Positions 1-8,825 of a DNA stretch of 30,146 nt are shown piece by piece. The stretch is taken from positions 1 through 30,146 of the forward strand of contig CAKPZC010000025.1 in NCBI GenBank assembly GCA_934203355.1. The letters are read 5' to 3'. A program made the position numbers and the translations under genes. Origin of the DNA: an uncultured Prevotella sp. Its GTDB lineage: Bacteria; Bacteroidota; Bacteroidia; Bacteroidales; Bacteroidaceae. The notes beneath the pieces were generated by a model, which saw only the letters and a program-made list of their open reading frames with translations, had not been told where the DNA came from and ran no database searches. Each line of letters begins with the position of its first letter. The first letter of the stretch is position 1.

Positions 1-945
1 GAGCTTAACAACCTCGACAATATAAGCATGTACGACCATTACTCTGCCATCTGCGGCATAAGCAAGACTGAACTGCTTACACAGATGAAGCCTGATGTGG
101 AATTGCTTGCCAAAGCCAATGGCACAACATTTGACGAGACGGTGGCTGAACTTACCGATTTTTATGATGGTTACCATTTCAGCGAACATGCGGAGGATGT
201 TTTCAATCCGTTTAGCCTTGTCAAGGCTTTACGAAACAAGAAGGTTGCTGCCTACTGGTTCAGTTCGGGTACACCAAGCTATCTGATAAAGACCTTGCAG
301 AAATATCATGTGGGCGTGATGGACATAGAGAAGAAAAGCGCATCTATTGACGACTTTGACGTGTCGCCAGAACAAATGACTTCTGCCTTGCCTCTTCTCT
401 ATCAGAGCGGTTATCTAACTATAAAGAAGTATAACCCAATACTACAGAAGTACCAGCTTGACTATCCTAACAAGGAGGTGCGCATAGGTATGGTCAAATC
501 GCTTGCGCCTAACTATCTGTCACCAATACAGCTCGACAACAACGGCTTCGTATTTGATTTTCTGGAGAATCTGCTCGACAACAACATGGATGGGGCTTTG
601 CAGAAAATGCAGGCGTATCTTGCAAGCATATCCAATCAACTGTCAAACAAGAACGAGCGCGACTTCCAAACCGTGTTCTATCTCATCTTCAATCTTATGG
701 GAGCATACATTAAGGTTGAGGAATGTAGCGCAATAGGCAGAGCTGATGCCGTGCTGCACTTGCCTGACGCCATATACGTGATAGAGCTAAAGTATGACGG
801 TTCTGCCGACGCTGCCCTGCAACAGATTGACGACAAGGGTTATCTTATTCCGTATTCGGCAGAGGGCAAGCGATTGATAAAGGTCGGCGTAAACTACGAC
901 AGCCTTAAACGAACAATTGGAGAATGGAGAATCGTGGAAGAGTAA
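1..945 (+). CDS. AAA-ATPase-like / PD-(D/E)XK nuclease-superfamily protein, 5'-truncated by window edge
   Basis: The reading frame is open from base 1 (it begins ELNNLDNIS before the first Met at base 28) and ends with TAA at 943-945, so this is the C-terminal part of a longer protein. The visible part matches the end of the AAA-ATPase_like region followed by the DUF1703 domain, a family expanded in Bacteroidales. The signature is near the C-terminus: [18 protein letters not shown], where the Glu and Lys fit a PD-(D/E)XK nuclease core, followed by a 'KGY...Y' stretch usual in these proteins. The N-terminal P-loop region lies outside the window. The biological role is not established; members are often called ATP-binding proteins and sit in variable regions. 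It converges on the restriction-modification operon, whose terminator starts just after this stop codon. Confidence 0.82.
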
Positions 946-991
946 AAAAAATCCTTGAGGGACATCTGATTTACTTTGATGCCCCCAAGGA
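945..991 (-). terminator. Rho-independent terminator of the restriction-modification operon
   Basis: On the minus strand, a stem formed by 991-978 and 966-952 (TCCTTGGGGGCATC paired with GATGTCCCTCAAGGA, one G-U pair and one bulged T) is followed by a run of eight T. It lies about 75 bases past the stop of the last methyltransferase and touches the stop of the converging gene. On the plus strand no T-run follows, so it works best for minus-strand transcription. Confidence 0.8.
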
Positions 992-1064: not shown

Positions 1065-2738
1065 TTATTCAACAAGCCCCATCATCTTCCCCATCGTAGT
1101 ATCTGTAAACGTACGCCAGATTTCAAGTTTCACCTTCTTGTAATCATCAAATAACTGATCGACATATTTTATCTCAAACACCAGACGAAGGTCGTTCTTA
1201 TTCTCTTCTATAGTCCCCTCTTTGCGATAGCCAAGACGGGCAATCCTGATAAGGAAAAGATCGCGAACTCCCTTACCCTTAATGTAAGGCATGAAATAGT
1301 ACAGTTTGTTGAGAGCTACAGTGGTCGGAAATTTCTTACCAGTATAGTAGATGGTTGCAGAACCATCGAGGAAGATTTTCTCGTTGTCTTTCTTTACCAA
1401 AGAAATAAGCACATTCTTGCTTGTGTCAGCAACAGACCGCTTCCCATAGTGAGGATATTCCGAATCGCGAACCATACAGTTCTCGGTGATAGGATTTTGT
1501 CCATATTCGTCAAACAGAGAGAATAAGTCAAGTTGATGATAGACAATCTTTTTATCACTATTAGAGTCTTTTTTGAGCGTGGATTTTTGGAATTCTTCTT
1601 TTGTCTTGTCAAACGTAAAAAAAGCAAAATCTCCACCTCCTTGCCAATTTACAGATGTTGAAATACCACCTTGCTCACCTTCTATAACACGTTTAAGTCT
1701 GGTTACAACCAACTCAGTCATTTGATCGCCAATCTCTACACCAATGTACTTTCTCTTCAACTTGTGAGCTGTTGAAAGTGTTGTACCAGAGCCCAAATAA
1801 CAATCGAGTACATAATCCCCCTCATTAGTAGCAATTTCGAGAATGTGCTTTATCAATTCTTCTGGCTTAGGAGTATCAAAAACCTTTTCATGTTCATGGA
1901 ACAAAGTAAGCAAATGTTTCTTAGCACTATCAGTAGTGCCATACTCGTCACCAGCCCAAAGTGTTTGAGGAGTTAAACCAATCTTAGCTGTAGAGAGAAA
2001 CTTTTTAATTCTTGGAGTATTGGAACCTGAGGCACCAAACCAAATATTACCAAACGCGATTTCGTCCTTCATCTTCGCTTCATTGTACACCCAGCATCTT
2101 CCTTTCGGAGGATTATGCTCTATACCCGATGGAGATACTATTGTATAGAATTGGCTTGGTACTGCATGACCTGCTTGTACACTGGCACTTATAGATTGCC
2201 ATGGGCCTCGTGGGTCGTTGTCAGGATTCTTATATTTAGAGGAAATAAAATCTTTCCCAACAGGTAGCAGATTTCTTGATTTCTTGAATTTTGCAATATC
2301 CTTTGCATAAACCAATACGTACTCATGATTGTATGAAAAAACCGCACGGTTTTCGCGCGTTTTACGTTGCTGCCAAATAATAGTACCAGCATGGTTCTCT
2401 CTGCCAAACACTTTGTCTGCTTCAACCTTTAAATAAGCCATTTCGCTATCATCAATAGATATCCATACGCTGCCATCTTTTGTTAGCAACATTTTTAGAT
2501 ACGCCAAGACATAATGAATGTCTTTGAGCCAGTTTGCTTCAGAAATATTATCATTGTAATAATGGTAAGTGTCTCCATTATTGTATGGCGGGTCAATATA
2601 GACACACTTTATTCTTCCACCAAACTCTTTTGTCAAAGATGGTAGAATTTCCTTATTATTTCCTTTTATGAGAATGTTCTGACTATCACTTGTACCCATA
2701 GAGGAATCTGCTTCGTATATAAACTTTATATCTTTCAT
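1065..2738 (-). CDS. Beta-class DNA adenine N6-methyltransferase (Type III Mod-like)
   Basis: A 557-residue methyltransferase. The catalytic motif IV, DPPYNNGD (residues 49-56), comes before the AdoMet-binding motif I region DCYLGSGTT (312-320), the order of beta-class enzymes such as Type III Mod subunits and many Type II adenine methyltransferases. DPPY rather than SPPY points to N6-adenine as target. The region between the motifs (about 120-300) and the C-terminal 180 residues probably include target recognition. No Res helicase subunit is adjacent, so a true Type III system is unlikely. The start codon overlaps the stop of the upstream methyltransferase gene (ATGA, 2735-2738), so the two are probably translationally coupled. 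It is the last gene of a four-gene operon that also holds a PLD-fold nuclease, and likely protects one strand of an asymmetric site. Family and chemistry are well supported; the recognition sequence cannot be read. Confidence 0.9.
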   Translation of the reverse strand: MKDIKFIYEADSSMGTSDSQNILIKGNNKEILPSLTKEFGGRIKCVYIDPPYNNGDTYHYYNDNISEANWLKDIHYVLAYLKMLLTKDGSVWISIDDSEMAYLKVEADKVFGRENHAGTIIWQQRKTRENRAVFSYNHEYVLVYAKDIAKFKKSRNLLPVGKDFISSKYKNPDNDPRGPWQSISASVQAGHAVPSQFYTIVSPSGIEHNPPKGRCWVYNEAKMKDEIAFGNIWFGASGSNTPRIKKFLSTAKIGLTPQTLWAGDEYGTTDSAKKHLLTLFHEHEKVFDTPKPEELIKHILEIATNEGDYVLDCYLGSGTTLSTAHKLKRKYIGVEIGDQMTELVVTRLKRVIEGEQGGISTSVNWQGGGDFAFFTFDKTKEEFQKSTLKKDSNSDKKIVYHQLDLFSLFDEYGQNPITENCMVRDSEYPHYGKRSVADTSKNVLISLVKKDNEKIFLDGSATIYYTGKKFPTTVALNKLYYFMPYIKGKGVRDLFLIRIARLGYRKEGTIEENKNDLRLVFEIKYVDQLFDDYKKVKLEIWRTFTDTTMGKMMGLVE

Positions 2739-4054
2739 TTTGGTCTATTGGTGCATACGATTAAGAGTTCAGCCTCTTCAGAAGCATTAAGAAAATGCTC
2801 TGTAGAGTTAAGTTTATTATGTTTGAATGTACCGGCAGAAACAATTTCAACAGATGTAAAATACTCCTTGGCCCAATCTAATAACTGCTGCATAGTCACC
2901 ACTCGCGGATGTGATTTTTTTGTTTCATCATACGGAGAATAAGAAAGCAACAGATTTCTGTCTGAAGAGGAAACCAGTTCAAACATCTTTCGGAATGCAG
3001 CAGGAGCTTTACTCTTAATACAGAACGGTGACTGATGGCGATCTTCACGATAAATGCCGTTGCTTATATGTGTTGAGCCATGTATCGTAACAGTGGACAA
3101 TTTTGGAGTATCTCTTAGCGTCAAAGTTTCAAGCACATGATAATATCGGCTGTAGTGATCTCTCGTGTATGGAGGATCTGCATAAACCGTTTTGACATAC
3201 TGTGGCAGTTCTTTTAGACACTGTTCATAATCACCTTGCATAATTATATGCTTATACTCGCTTCTCGAGAGATTCTTATACTTTATCAGCCATTCTCTAA
3301 ATAGAGGAAAGACATCCATTGTTTTATCTTTTACGGCTTTATTATAAACCGTATTTTTAATATTGCCTTTGGAATCCCTTGCCTTGATAGGCTGAGCAAA
3401 GTGCTTTCCTACCGTGTCGACAATATCGCTTGTTGTACTTAAGAGCGCTGCAAGAAACAAATCTCGGTTTTCCATAGAAACAAACGTATGAATCCCTTCC
3501 AGAATAATATCTATATCAACAGCCTGCTTATATGAAAAATACACTCCACCATAGTAGCGGCTTATTAACGACCTAACATCATCAAGTTTGTCCTCTTTCA
3601 GACAATTACTTGCAGAATCAAGCAAGTCTGAAAGACATGAAACATTATGCTCAATATTGAACACTTCCAACGAACCATGCTCTAAGATGTCTGTAAGCAC
3701 CTCGATATTCTTAGTCGCAATAGAGTTTTGTTCGAGCACTATTAAAGGGTGGAAAGCCGTCTTTAATCTATTGGCAGAATCAGTGTTCAGTCTTTTAAAA
3801 AAGCTATCAATTTCAGAGTCGTCTATAGAGAATCTTTTCAACAAAGCATTTGCAATTATTTTGGAATATGCCTGAATATCACATGAAACAACAGAATGGG
3901 ACTGTGACAACTTACGAGAAACACAGCCAGAGCCTGCGAATAAATCACAGACACCAGCTCCTAATGGAGTGATTTCTTGAACTTTATCGTTGATAAAATC
4001 CAAAAGTCTCAGTTTACTACCAAGGTAGTTTAATGTTCGAAAATTATAACTCAT
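2735..4054 (-). CDS. Alpha-class (D12 / Dam-like) DNA adenine methyltransferase
   Basis: A 439-residue protein with the motif order of the D12 class: an N-terminal LNYLGSKLRLLDFI segment (motif X, about 8-21), motif I VCDLFAGSGCVS (35-46), and the catalytic motif IV YADPPYTRDHYSRYYH (291-306). Dam enzymes are about 280 residues long. Here roughly 250 residues separate motifs I and IV, so the target-recognition part that sits there in alpha-class enzymes is unusually large. DPPY predicts N6-methyladenine. The gene starts directly after the stop codon of the PLD nuclease (no spacer) and overlaps the next methyltransferase by 4 bases. Two methyltransferases of different permutation classes beside one nuclease suggest an asymmetric recognition site, each enzyme modifying one strand. 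This pairing is inference; the family assignment is from visible motifs. Confidence 0.88.
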   Translation of the reverse strand: MSYNFRTLNYLGSKLRLLDFINDKVQEITPLGAGVCDLFAGSGCVSRKLSQSHSVVSCDIQAYSKIIANALLKRFSIDDSEIDSFFKRLNTDSANRLKTAFHPLIVLEQNSIATKNIEVLTDILEHGSLEVFNIEHNVSCLSDLLDSASNCLKEDKLDDVRSLISRYYGGVYFSYKQAVDIDIILEGIHTFVSMENRDLFLAALLSTTSDIVDTVGKHFAQPIKARDSKGNIKNTVYNKAVKDKTMDVFPLFREWLIKYKNLSRSEYKHIIMQGDYEQCLKELPQYVKTVYADPPYTRDHYSRYYHVLETLTLRDTPKLSTVTIHGSTHISNGIYREDRHQSPFCIKSKAPAAFRKMFELVSSSDRNLLLSYSPYDETKKSHPRVVTMQQLLDWAKEYFTSVEIVSAGTFKHNKLNSTEHFLNASEEAELLIVCTNRPK

Positions 4055-5272
4055 TTAGAATATCAATTCTGGATAAAGTGCATGAATAGCTTCAATGTGA
4101 ACAATATGCCTTCTCAGTTCACCCTCTCTCCTAACTTTACTTTCTGTATACAGAAATTTCTTGATTTGTTTATATGAAGGATGGTCATACCAAAGGACTT
4201 GGTACAAAAACTGATTATTGTCAATCTTGATGAACAATCCTATAGGACGTTTCGTGTTCCCAGGATAATCAAGTTCGGTTTCAGCACAATGAATTTCAAA
4301 ACGATAATTATGACTTGCAACAGATACTGCCTGACGAATCTCAATATCGCCTAAAGTGCCATCTTTTGCTATATTCATCAAATGTATGTTGTAAGAATTG
4401 TTTCCACGTTCTGCACCAAAGAAATTCTCAAAGATATCAACAGTAAAATTAACTTGCTTCCAACGAGGGCCTCCTCCAATTTCTGCGATTAAAACTTCTT
4501 CTCCGTTTACCACAAGTGACTCTTCCGATTCTTTCAATATCGGGTGACTCGGATTGCATTCATCTTCAATCCTTATCACTCTTCTTGCTTTTACGACTCT
4601 TCTTTTAGGGACAAAACCGTCCGGATTACGTTGAATTTTTGCACCATTAAAACTGATATTCCTTTTAGTTTTTGACACACTATCTCTACCATTGTCATAC
4701 TTTTCCGTACGCTCTAACTCAGTTGGTATCAATTTGTCTGCAAATAAATTATCAATCAATTCTTGAGTAATTGGCATAAGATTTACATCAACTCCATCAA
4801 GAATTGACTTCCAGTATACATAAAAGTCATTATGAACAGAGTGTTCGCCTTTCGCATCTTTTATGAGCAATGAACATTCTATATTTTTCACCAATCCCAT
4901 AGTAGTCAAATTATTTGATCCTACAATGAGAGTAAAAATATCGGTATTCTCGAAAAGATATATTTTGGGATGAAAGATATTAACAGACTGAGTATGATAT
5001 ATCTTTGATTCTACTCCCCATGACAAGACCTCCTCAAGAGCTTCTTTTGAAGTTCCCTTTTGGTCTATTCCCAGTATAATATTAATCTTTACACCTCTTT
5101 CCTTTTCTGCTAGAATATATGGAGTCAATGCAGTTATTCCTCCATAACTTGCAAATGCAACAAGACATGTAAAAGAATCGTATCTTTTACTATTGAACTG
5201 TTCAATAAGTTCCTTGGCTATAGATGTATCAGCATCAATATTATAACCTTGTCCTATTATTTTGGTATCCAT
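4055..5272 (-). CDS. PLD-fold restriction endonuclease, BfiI/NgoFVII-like
   Basis: A 405-residue protein whose N-terminal half carries a phospholipase-D active-site motif: H101 and K103 in NIFHPKIYLFE, followed by VGSNNLTTMGL with GSNN at 118-121. One HxK...GSNN motif per chain is the pattern of the metal-independent PLD-family restriction enzymes (BfiI, NgoFVII), which dimerise to build one active site. Residues about 255-405 (EIGGGPRWKQVNF ... ENFFGAERGNNSYNIHL ... YRFEIHC) resemble a B3-like DNA-recognition domain of this family; that match is from memory and less certain. A basic linker rich in Lys and Arg (about 200-235) joins the halves. It lies between the DUF262 gene (6-base gap) and two adenine methyltransferases (no gap), so restriction endonuclease is the natural reading. 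A non-restriction PLD nuclease is the main alternative. Confidence 0.82.
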   Translation of the reverse strand: MDTKIIGQGYNIDADTSIAKELIEQFNSKRYDSFTCLVAFASYGGITALTPYILAEKERGVKINIILGIDQKGTSKEALEEVLSWGVESKIYHTQSVNIFHPKIYLFENTDIFTLIVGSNNLTTMGLVKNIECSLLIKDAKGEHSVHNDFYVYWKSILDGVDVNLMPITQELIDNLFADKLIPTELERTEKYDNGRDSVSKTKRNISFNGAKIQRNPDGFVPKRRVVKARRVIRIEDECNPSHPILKESEESLVVNGEEVLIAEIGGGPRWKQVNFTVDIFENFFGAERGNNSYNIHLMNIAKDGTLGDIEIRQAVSVASHNYRFEIHCAETELDYPGNTKRPIGLFIKIDNNQFLYQVLWYDHPSYKQIKKFLYTESKVRREGELRRHIVHIEAIHALYPELIF

Positions 5273-5278
5273 ATTTAC

Positions 5279-7381
5279 TTATTCTTTATTCTTTCTTAAT
5301 TCCTCAATTTGTCCAATTTGTACGCCATCTTCATTCTGCCAATACTCCCAACCGTTGCGAGATCCATGAAGAATGATAGCGGCTGTTGTGGAAAGCGCTG
5401 TCGCTTTTATCCTCTTAGGATAGAAGAAATAGTTTGTTGTAAACTTCAGTTGTCCTTCGCACTCTTCTATCACCCCATCGTCCTTCAAGTCTGAGCGTAA
5501 AGCTTCAATCTCTGGATATAACTCAGGAGTTGGCGAATCCATATAAAGCGTTGAACCTTCAAGAATTTCTACACTTCCGTTGTCAGGATAATAATATCCT
5601 TGTGCATACGCATTCTGAGAGTCAATGTGTATAGCCACTTTAGCTATGGCAGAGTCCTTCGCCTCATAATAAGGGTAAAGCCTTGCAATATCAGCTATGA
5701 GTTGCTGAGTGCGTTCTTCAATATCCATTAGTGTCCAATGCTCCTTTTGCAGAATCTCGTGATTTATCTTCAGATGGTTGGTAGAAGCAAGCACTTTGTT
5801 CTTGTATTCCCACACTTTGTTGCTCATTTTACTGTTGTCGTTTCGTGCAGCAAGTGTAAGATTGCCAAGCCGATGAACATTTTCGTCATAAGTGTCCTTG
5901 TCTGTGTTTAACGCTTCGTACCATTCGTGAGTAGCCGTTTGTGGCATCAAGTGTTCGATACTCAACTTAGAAAAATCTACAGGAGCGGGATTGTTCTCTG
6001 ATTCCAGCTTTCTGAAGAAAATGTTAAGCCATGAACGGAGATTGTACATGTTGGCATTTAGGATTCTGTCTCTTAGACGATTGTTGTCTGGCATCTCCTG
6101 AGAATTTCCTTTGTTTCTATTCACAAGGTTCTTCTTGAATATCTCCACTATGTCAACATAGTTGCCGTCACAATCTGCAAGAGTCTCCTTCAAAAGCGTT
6201 GGAAAGTAACGTGTAATGTCACTGGTGTCCATTCCGCAAAGTGAACGACGCATCAGATAAGAGTTGAGAATTGTTATTATCTCAGACAATTGCTTTGCTG
6301 AGATACGAGGATTCCCTTTGTCATCCACACTCTTATGTATCGCGTAAAGTTCCATAAGTAATGGAGCTGGCATATCTGACAAGATAAAGCGAAATTCTTC
6401 TACAGCTTTGTGCAATGCAGAATCCAAAGAATCTACTGGTGCTTTATAGATGGCGTTGTAGTAAGAAGCGTATTTCACAATCTCTTTGAATACTCCTTCC
6501 TCACCATAAGTGGCTACATTTTCGTCATACCATTCGGTAAATGCACGGTAAACTGCACTCTTGTTTATCAAAGACATTCTCTTCGCCATTATAAAAAAGC
6601 GAAAGAATGCTTCAAGTTTCTTAGAGTCACTATCAATCAGTTGTTCTAGTCGCTTCCAATACTTCTCATAGTATTTATCCTGCAAGTCACTACGAATAGG
6701 CATGAGGATGAAGTTGCGAATCAAGTCGCTGGCAGTGAGCTTTGCACCTGTGGCATTGATACTTTCAAATATTTTCTGAGGGTAATCGTCCTTACCTATG
6801 GGTACGCAGACGATATAGAGCTTATTCATAGCCTCAAGAATATCATTGATTGTATATGTGTCCAGCAATTCTTGAAGCACATTCTTTATATATAAGAAGT
6901 TGATATAGACATTTGCTTTCTTCTCTTGAATATTTTCAAAGTCGCGTGTAACAATCTGCTGATAAACAGCGTCATCCGACACAAGAGGCTTTAACTTGAA
7001 CTTGTTAGTTTCATTAAAAGGATTAACAAGATACATGTTTTCAAGTTTTTCAGCATCAAGATTCAAGCCTCTTTCTATCATCAATTCCTTGATTGAATAG
7101 AGCATAAGGAATATGGTGGTAAGACGTTGCTGACCATCTATGACAGAGCGTTCACGCTGAAATGCAGATATGCTTGTTTCCAAGTAAATCATGATACCAA
7201 TAAAATGCTTGGTTATTTCACCACTCAGGACCTCCTTTATATCCTCAAGCAACTGTTTAACCTCCTTATTCGCAACCCAGGTATAGTTACGCTGATAGGC
7301 AGGAATCACAAACTGTGTTCCCTGACTTCCGTACAGTAGTTCCAAAAGTCCTACTTTTATTGGTATATTTTCTTGTTGCAT
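5279..7381 (-). CDS. DUF262-DUF1524-DUF4357 protein, GmrSD-like nuclease
   Basis: A 700-residue protein with three recognisable parts. The N-terminal DUF262 (about 10-230) has PAYQRNYTW (28-35) and the IDGQQRLTT motif (81-89), which in GmrS/SspE-type proteins belongs to an NTP-binding/hydrolysing domain. The DUF1524 region (about 430-570) has the His-Me finger nuclease signature IEHLMPQ (H477) followed by VHRLGNLTLAARNDN (502-516). The C-terminus (about 640-695) has SRNGWEYW (N676-W678), as in DUF4357, an accessory domain of restriction-related proteins. The family includes the Type IV enzyme GmrSD, which cuts modified phage DNA, and the phosphorothioation-linked SspE. It leads a tight operon with a PLD nuclease and two methyltransferases. 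Whether it cuts modified phage DNA, senses something else, or works with the PLD enzyme cannot be told from sequence. Confidence 0.87.
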   Translation of the reverse strand: MQQENIPIKVGLLELLYGSQGTQFVIPAYQRNYTWVANKEVKQLLEDIKEVLSGEITKHFIGIMIYLETSISAFQRERSVIDGQQRLTTIFLMLYSIKELMIERGLNLDAEKLENMYLVNPFNETNKFKLKPLVSDDAVYQQIVTRDFENIQEKKANVYINFLYIKNVLQELLDTYTINDILEAMNKLYIVCVPIGKDDYPQKIFESINATGAKLTASDLIRNFILMPIRSDLQDKYYEKYWKRLEQLIDSDSKKLEAFFRFFIMAKRMSLINKSAVYRAFTEWYDENVATYGEEGVFKEIVKYASYYNAIYKAPVDSLDSALHKAVEEFRFILSDMPAPLLMELYAIHKSVDDKGNPRISAKQLSEIITILNSYLMRRSLCGMDTSDITRYFPTLLKETLADCDGNYVDIVEIFKKNLVNRNKGNSQEMPDNNRLRDRILNANMYNLRSWLNIFFRKLESENNPAPVDFSKLSIEHLMPQTATHEWYEALNTDKDTYDENVHRLGNLTLAARNDNSKMSNKVWEYKNKVLASTNHLKINHEILQKEHWTLMDIEERTQQLIADIARLYPYYEAKDSAIAKVAIHIDSQNAYAQGYYYPDNGSVEILEGSTLYMDSPTPELYPEIEALRSDLKDDGVIEECEGQLKFTTNYFFYPKRIKATALSTTAAIILHGSRNGWEYWQNEDGVQIGQIEELRKNKE

Positions 7382-7940: not shown

Positions 7941-8009
7941 AACCGCTCAAAACTCGAGAATTCTGGCAAAAGATTTACTTGTGGGTTCAGCCCGCAGTTT
8001 TGAGCGGTT
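7941..8009. repeat. 14-base perfect inverted repeat with nested hairpin
   Basis: AACCGCTCAAAACT (7941-7954) is perfectly complementary to AGTTTTGAGCGGTT (7996-8009). Within the 41-base loop a smaller hairpin, TGTGGG/CCCGCA with one G-U pair, sits next to the right arm. The form resembles the REP-like intergenic palindromes of Bacteroidetes genomes. It lies about 85 bases before the nitroreductase promoter box. Confidence 0.6.
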
Positions 8010-8126: not shown

Positions 8127-8825
8127 ATGATTATGACATTACTGGAAGCTATAAAGCAACGACATAGTGTGCGCAGGTACGTTCATAAGCCACTGTCGGC
8201 AGACATCATTGAGACGTTACAGAAGAAGATTGAGGAGTGTAACGCTGAGGGAGGGCTCCACATACAGCTTGTGACTAACGAGACAAGGGCTTTTACAGGC
8301 ATCTTCTCGTATGGCAAGTTTTCGGGTGTGGAGAATTATTTGGTTATGGTTGGAAAGAAGGCTGATGACCTTGACGAGCGTGTGGGTTATTACGGAGAAC
8401 AGCTTGTACTGCTGGCTCAAACACTTGGTCTGAATACTTGCTGGGCAGGACTGAGCTATCGCAAGGTGAGCGAGGCTTACATTGTTGGTGATGACGAAAA
8501 ACTGACGTGTATGATAGCCTTGGGATATGGAGCAACTCAAGGCTTTAAGCGCAAGAGCAAGACAATAGAGCAGGTAAGCAATGTCTGCAACGACTCGCCC
8601 GAATGGTTCCGCAATGGTGTTGAAGCTGCTCTCTTAGCTCCAACTGCCATCAATCAACAGAAGTTTTCCTTCACTCTGTTGCCTAACGAGCAAGGTACAA
8701 GAGAGAAACCAAAGATTCTTGCCAATCGAGGCTTCTCAATGGTGGGATATACCAAGATGGATATAGGCATAGCCAGACTGCACTTTGAGATTGGTGCAGG
8801 AAAGGAAAACTTCGATTGGGCGTAA
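8127..8825 (+). CDS. Nitroreductase-family protein (TM1586-type)
   Basis: A 232-residue protein beginning MIMTLLEAIKQRHSVRRY; the RHSVRRY segment is the usual N-terminal FMN-phosphate-binding signature of nitroreductases. It continues with YGEQLVLLAQTLGLNTCWAGLSY and MIALGYG, typical of the FMN-dependent fold, and ends with a second, related half (LLAPTAINQQKFSF; GIARLHFEIGAG) as in the TM1586 subfamily in which the domain is internally duplicated. Such enzymes are cytoplasmic NAD(P)H-dependent flavoproteins; the physiological substrate is not predictable. Either ATG 8127 or ATG 8133 may be the start. The gene stands alone: a promoter box lies upstream and hairpins follow directly. Confidence 0.85.
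   Translation: MIMTLLEAIKQRHSVRRYVHKPLSADIIETLQKKIEECNAEGGLHIQLVTNETRAFTGIFSYGKFSGVENYLVMVGKKADDLDERVGYYGEQLVLLAQTLGLNTCWAGLSYRKVSEAYIVGDDEKLTCMIALGYGATQGFKRKSKTIEQVSNVCNDSPEWFRNGVEAALLAPTAINQQKFSFTLLPNEQGTREKPKILANRGFSMVGYTKMDIGIARLHFEIGAGKENFDWA

Follow-up and report, generated by a model that had tools for sequence, protein, structure and literature searches.

GmrSD-type enzymes follow a plan in which nucleoside triphosphate (NTP)-gated cutting is directed at DNA carrying foreign modifications (PMC10952713), and their genes generally cluster with restriction-modification (RM) systems, as described by Machnicka et al. 2015 (PMC4619093). Two further members of this protein family, DndI and SspE, are described as effectors steered by the DNA mark of their own host, which for DndI is phosphorothioate (PMC11662687). 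Among restriction endonucleases, BfiI combines a PLD nuclease with a B3-like C-terminal domain, and type IIS enzymes are usually paired with two methyltransferases, one for each strand of the asymmetric site (PMC4081073). Here we examine four adjoining minus-strand genes in a 30,146-nucleotide stretch of DNA from an uncultured Prevotella sp. (contig CAKPZC010000025.1), referred to at its full length as the window. These genes encode a DUF262/DUF1524 protein of the GmrSD family (gene 1), a PLD nuclease (gene 2), and two adenine methyltransferases, one of the alpha class (gene 3) and one of the beta class (gene 4). Our analysis makes it likely that they represent two separate defence modules placed in tandem and probably co-transcribed, namely a BfiI-like type II RM trio and a self-standing GmrSD-family enzyme.

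The four encoded proteins

The four open reading frames are intact, with spacings of 6, 0 and -4 nucleotides (Table 1). This arrangement had been described in an earlier annotation made from the letters alone (hereafter the sequence-only reading), as had the gene identities and several motifs. All were confirmed: the proteins give the corresponding Pfam matches, the quoted motifs occur in the translations, and the catalytic residues are invariant in homologues.

The protein of gene 2 is matched in Pfam by PLDc_2 (3.9e-13) and by RE_NgoFVII (1.8e-5; 24.6 bits, with a cut-off of 23.8). A Foldseek search with its structure model returned BfiI (2c1l) as the first match (E 4.9e-14), which upholds the comparison with BfiI drawn by the sequence-only reading, and the NgoAVII R-protein is also among the fold matches. 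At the sequence level, the match to BfiI is significant in the PLD domain only. The protein shows two traits of the BfiI kind. It carries one conserved HxK motif with downstream S and N residues (H100, K102, S118 and N120 are invariant across 54 aligned PLD proteins), and it has a B3-like C-terminal domain. The family comprises 710 database proteins at E <= 1e-3. Membership of a DISARM system was considered and rejected, given that the DrmC model scores 28.4 bits where the cut-off is 133. A 161-amino-acid stand-alone relative of the C-terminal domain, lacking the PLD part, was seen on a Paenarthrobacter plasmid (L064 5061-5546), where it is placed behind two methyltransferase genes and is 28.7% identical over query residues 236-401.

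Of the two methyltransferases, the alpha-class enzyme matches MethyltransfD12 (9.2e-17) and has DLFAGSG and DPPY in its translation, and the beta-class enzyme matches N6_N4_Mtase (9e-43), MTase_III (1e-100) and the Mod structure 6k0w in the PDB (3.3e-38). A type III RM system was rejected for this Mod-like gene because Pfam scans of 21 window genes revealed no Res. The C-terminal 180 residues of the beta-class enzyme (window 1068-1607) have no Pfam match at E <= 0.01, and two of its homologues in the loci described below are shorter (379 amino acids in L008 and 373 in L061); the match in L006 covers residues 6-376 only.

With a B3-like recognition domain of its own and two methyltransferases, the PLD enzyme fits the type IIS plan outlined in PMC4081073, and the trio is probably of this type. 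In the first module (1065-5272), the PLD protein would use its B3-like domain to bind an asymmetric site and would cut unmodified DNA in a metal-free reaction using one HxK motif per subunit, and each methyltransferase would guard one strand by N6-adenine methylation.

Gene 1 encodes both halves of the GmrSD plan, with Pfam matches to GmrSD_N (4.1e-32) and GmrSD_C (1.4e-21). The features of the family are present, including DGQQR in the DUF262 domain and the His-Me finger residues in the DUF1524 domain, and an alignment of 42 sequences shows D82-R86, H477, N507, N516 and N521 to be invariant. The tail resembles DUF4357 at 33.8 bits, below the curated cut-off of 38.4, and the same domain is precomputed in 114 of 120 DUF262 homologues among the matches listed. 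Protein databases hold at least 120 such homologues that are 64-98% identical, given with no gene context. The structure model of gene 1 matches solved members of the family, of which DndI and SspE are the nearest, nearer than BrxU. In the second module (5279-7381), this enzyme would act alone, its DUF262 domain binding or hydrolysing an NTP and thereby gating the DUF1524 nuclease. The target would most likely be modified DNA that escapes the first module, such that the two modules together could provide cover against both unmodified and modified phages.

Separate occurrence of the trio and the DUF262 gene

A scan with the PLD protein, using one genome per species, yielded nine places that encode a relative of gene 2. 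A methyltransferase beside the nuclease is conserved in this set: seven places (L002-L008) carry genes 2, 3 and 4, L001 carries genes 2 and 3 and then reaches the contig end, and L009 has an Eco57I-type methyltransferase instead of the pair. Further complete trios were found in L046 (G421) and on an Acinetobacter pittii plasmid (L061). The trio is therefore complete in nine other places and contig-cut in one, with a range extending from Bacteroidales to an Acinetobacter plasmid. Gene 3 runs in the opposite direction in L008 and L061. Since gene 2 is 97-98% identical among L001-L003, these were counted as one lineage. Additional PLD homologues lie beside Eco57I-type methyltransferases (L047, L048 and L066, as in L009) or beside a D12 enzyme alone (L051), and such varied partners are a pattern seen with type II nucleases.

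These neighbourhoods also bear on another possible role for the PLD protein, that of a modification-dependent nuclease similar to SauUSI, the closest fold for the PLD domain, in which case the methyltransferases would be unrelated to it. We consider this highly improbable. The protein has no helicase part, its B3-like recognition domain is as in BfiI, and the association with methyltransferases in the nine places (both in seven, the alpha-class enzyme followed by the contig end in one, an Eco57I-type enzyme in one) argues against unrelated neighbours.

Two other gene arrangements were seen beside PLD homologues. An HTH_3 gene (L048 6529-6846) lies between the nuclease and Eco57I-type methyltransferase genes, placed like an RM controller gene, and a pair of PLD and Eco57I-type methyltransferase genes (L066 5974-8777) resides on a contig filed as viral.

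If gene 1 were part of the same system as the trio, it should accompany it elsewhere. However, a full DUF262 gene lies 5' of the PLD gene in none of the 10 trio loci, nine of which extend 1.2 kb or more upstream of it (L006 offers 163 bases only). A profile built from 14 DUF262 proteins detects one DUF262 gene across these 10 loci, located behind the trio in L046. Likewise, among the nine genomes with PLD homologues, which are mostly drafts, seven have no DUF262 match at E <= 1e-5, and the best match in the remaining two is 31% identical. Of the eight loci whose DNA can be aligned up to this point (L001-L007 and L046), seven show similarity to the window starting 0-32 bases 5' of gene 2; in the eighth, L046, it starts 64 bases 5' of the PLD start because of a DUF262 remnant considered below.

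A T5orf172 gene lies 5' of the trio in L001 (9082-9744) and L003 (735-1412), and the corresponding gene in L002 (upstream of 4454) is apparently decayed. By eye, the end of this gene in L001 and L003 (LSELRKEKE) is similar to a DUF4357-like tail, and this candidate was rejected; the T5orf172 tail gives no match to DUF4357 by Pfam at E 10 and none with a tail profile.

The converse comparison was made using 22 places that encode DUF262 proteins, comprising four in the genomes with PLD homologues, 13 from a scan of the order, one from the genus of G005, two from plasmids, one from a viral contig, and L046. Only L046 has a PLD gene in the locus, and four of the 22 are known from loci of 2.4-4.2 kb only. 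The closest relatives with readable neighbours, L036 (84% identical), L037 (62%) and L065 (48%), all have loci that contain neither a PLD gene nor the trio methyltransferases. The DNA similarity shared by the window and L036 spans window 7397-5276, which is the DUF262 gene plus at most 16 extra bases. Taken together, a trio that is conserved without the DUF262 gene and DUF262 relatives that occur without the trio point to two separate modules. In L044, a DUF262 gene lies 9 nucleotides before an HsdM gene, which is followed by HsdS, an order that agrees with the clustering of GmrSD and RM genes described in PMC4619093.

The relatives at 84, 62 and 48% identity are equally relevant to a reading in which the DUF262 protein recognizes the adenine methylation of the trio as a self mark, in the manner of DndI, such that one pair of marks would serve against two nucleases. 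The closest solved folds, DndI and SspE, are those of effectors steered by a host DNA mark (PMC11662687), and this is the observation that favours it. Fold similarity is uninformative on the ligand, no domain that reads N6-methyladenine was identified in the DUF262 protein, and the three relatives lack these methyltransferases in their loci, making this reading very unlikely. If true, a single modification would serve two nucleases that are unrelated to each other, and the recurring but loose pairing of DUF262 gene and trio seen in the window and in G421 would represent an early or optional stage.

Broader counts of DUF262 genes contribute little to the comparison. Among 393 genomes sampled from the order, gene 2 was matched in six and gene 1 in 13 (at different E limits, and with only two DUF262 candidates scored in many genomes), with no overlap; this carries no weight, as the overlap expected by chance is about 0.2. 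Searches of 399 and 180 genomes from two families gave no DUF262 match at E <= 1e-100, with few candidates scored per genome, and this zero shows little because these sets included no genome known to match. A DUF262 match was found in 1 of 38 genomes in the genus of G005 and in 1 of 8 each in the genus and family of G323, the latter being the same gene as in the order scan. Single-protein scans of viral contigs gave no relatives, and alignments then gave one and four loci; phage records gave seven and two matches, all weak. Of the plasmid records, 7 of 12 were examined for the PLD protein and 2 of 279 for the DUF262 protein. The alignment lists name part of the relatives, and no conclusion was drawn from families missing in them.

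Additional DUF262 loci are of interest in their own right. The relative at L065 180-2453, without the trio, is on a contig filed as viral. In L056 (1711-4049) and L057 (5109-6784), which are plasmids of Lactococcus and Enterococcus, a YjcQ-family gene comes 20 nucleotides after a DUF4357-bearing GmrSD-like gene, possibly as a fixed pair.

The junction between the two proposed modules

According to the proposal of the sequence-only reading, the run as a whole is a single integrated system of two layers with a common promoter, which would entail selection holding the GmrSD-like gene with the trio. In its favour are the 6-nucleotide gap between genes 1 and 2 and the one terminator, which we recognize in a terminator-like hairpin 3' of gene 4 (-21.7 kcal/mol, z -3.2, equalled in none of 200 shuffles) that is followed by eight T residues. 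The promoter part of the proposal fared less well. Matches to a sigma-70-type promoter are close to chance in the window (30, with a shuffle mean of 24.5), as are matches to a Bacteroidetes-type pattern (2 compared with 1.2, and 23 compared with 21.6, in shuffles). A single promoter is suggested by the gene spacing only, and the four genes are probably co-transcribed.

Several observations weigh against a simple division into two modules. First, directly 5' of the PLD gene in L046, a stretch of 58 nucleotides (8650-8707) resembles the 3'-terminal part of gene 1 in the window (78%, E 2e-8); it yields nearly the same C-terminal residues, with a stop 11 nucleotides before the PLD start. This remnant indicates that two lineages or more have had the DUF262-PLD junction of the window, which has eroded in L046. 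Second, L046 carries a DUF262 gene of another lineage (2276-4357), 26.6% identical to that of the window, 51 nucleotides behind the trio. These data suggest that the association of DUF262 gene and trio recurs beyond what blind independence would give, yet is not fixed; a 97.8% identical copy of the L046 gene is found elsewhere without the trio (L040). Third, the four-gene order may be more common among close DUF262 relatives than the loci here show, because at least 120 close homologues come without context and neighbours are readable for few. Finally, concerning the trio itself, a Halobacterium PLD homologue has no annotated methyltransferase nearby, and no methyltransferase was recognised in the PLD loci L049 and L050, which were viewed without a Pfam scan.

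An integrated system draws further support from published complementarity, as BrxU complements BREX functionally (PMC8565348) and a like relation is suggested for TgvAB, which is encoded within a type I RM cluster (PMC11411939). Set against this and against the remnant and second DUF262 gene in G421 are three points: none of the 10 trio loci has a full DUF262 gene 5' of the PLD gene; of the DUF262 relatives whose neighbours are readable, the nearest three lack the trio; and GmrSD genes in general tend to cluster with RM systems (PMC4619093), which explains the neighbourhood without integration. We therefore regard a single integrated system as rather unlikely. What survives of the one-system proposal is a junction that has left a trace in a second locus; what does not survive, in the loci and genomes covered here, is conserved four-gene synteny, with a full DUF262 gene regularly absent 5' of the trio and a DUF262 match absent from most of the genomes with PLD homologues, most close DUF262 homologues in the protein database having no contig placement. 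The junction is mobile, being intact in the window, eroded in one relative, and absent from the other trio loci seen. For this reason, close spacing and a common terminator are insufficient to define a single system.

The run is placed amid ordinary genes. On its left is a gene with a PDDEXK_9 domain, and on its right are genes for a nitroreductase, a NUDIX protein and the two chains of carbamoyl-phosphate synthase. Scanning the window for Rfam families and for tRNAs gave no matches. An inverted repeat is located at 7941-8009, in the interval that separates the DUF262 gene from the nitroreductase gene, with arms AACCGCTCAAAACT (7941-7954) and AGTTTTGAGCGGTT (7996-8009).

Table 1. Features of the four-gene run, in window coordinates
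Feature	Position	Strand	Details
DUF262/DUF1524 (GmrSD/SspE/DndI family) protein, gene 1	5279..7381	-	700 aa; DUF4357-like tail
DUF262 (GmrSD_N) domain	6707..7327	-	residues 19-225; DGQQR at 82-86; Pfam
DUF1524 (GmrSD_C, His-Me/HNH nuclease) domain	5693..6091	-	residues 431-563; Pfam
DUF4357-like C-terminal domain	5318..5497	-	residues 629-688; E 3.4e-8, under Pfam curated cut-off
PLD-family restriction endonuclease (predicted), gene 2	4055..5272	-	405 aa; PLDc_2, RE_NgoFVII; BfiI 2c1l top Foldseek match
Catalytic HPK, single HxK motif	4967..4975	-	residues 100-102; invariant in 54 sequences
B3-like DNA-recognition domain of PLD protein	4061..4504	-	about residues 257-404
Alpha-class (D12) adenine-N6 methyltransferase (predicted), gene 3	2735..4054	-	439 aa; MethyltransfD12; DLFAGSG, DPPY
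Beta-class, type III Mod-like adenine-N6 methyltransferase (predicted), gene 4	1065..2738	-	557 aa; N6_N4_Mtase, MTase_III
Intrinsic terminator-like hairpin and T tract	944..991	-	fold energy compared with shuffles

Comparison with described systems

BfiI is accompanied by two methyltransferases. The trio resembles BfiI and BmrI of type IIS in that a PLD nuclease with one HxK motif is fused to a B3-like C-terminal domain and is adjoined by two methyltransferases. It may differ in its pair, which in the window consists of one alpha-class D12 enzyme and one beta-class, type III Mod-like enzyme. The BfiI kind gains a PLD type II family in which an alpha-class and a beta-class methyltransferase are combined. 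Likeness to the PLD enzymes NgoFVII and NgoAVII lies in the RE_NgoFVII PLD domain and in the fold match to the NgoAVII R-protein. NgoAVII needs a helicase, whereas a Pfam scan of the window genes found no helicase gene beside the trio.

Gene 1 shares with the type IV enzymes GmrSD, BrxU and Eco94GmrSD the presence of DUF262 and DUF1524 in one chain, the DGQQR motif and the His-Me residues. Its model is nearer to the DndI and SspE folds than to BrxU, and its DUF4357-like tail is a variant that appears in the list of Machnicka et al. 2015 (PMC4619093).

The sequence-only reading had placed a GmrSD-type gene with a modification-blocked system, and the identities of the DUF262 protein and the trio bear this out. 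It had also put forward layered defence, a notion that published accounts of BREX with BrxU (PMC8565348) and of a type I RM system with TgvAB (PMC11411939) precede. The four-gene set was not found in the literature at the level of titles and abstract openings, a coverage that largely excludes subscription papers. The novelty of the locus is limited to an additional family member and to known modules in a new combination. As in the islands that hold BREX with BrxU or type I RM with TgvAB, a GmrSD-family enzyme is found with a modification-blocked system and complementary protection would result, but here the partner is a type II PLD system, and the window offers one more example in which a system that modification can block has a GmrSD-type enzyme stacked on it.

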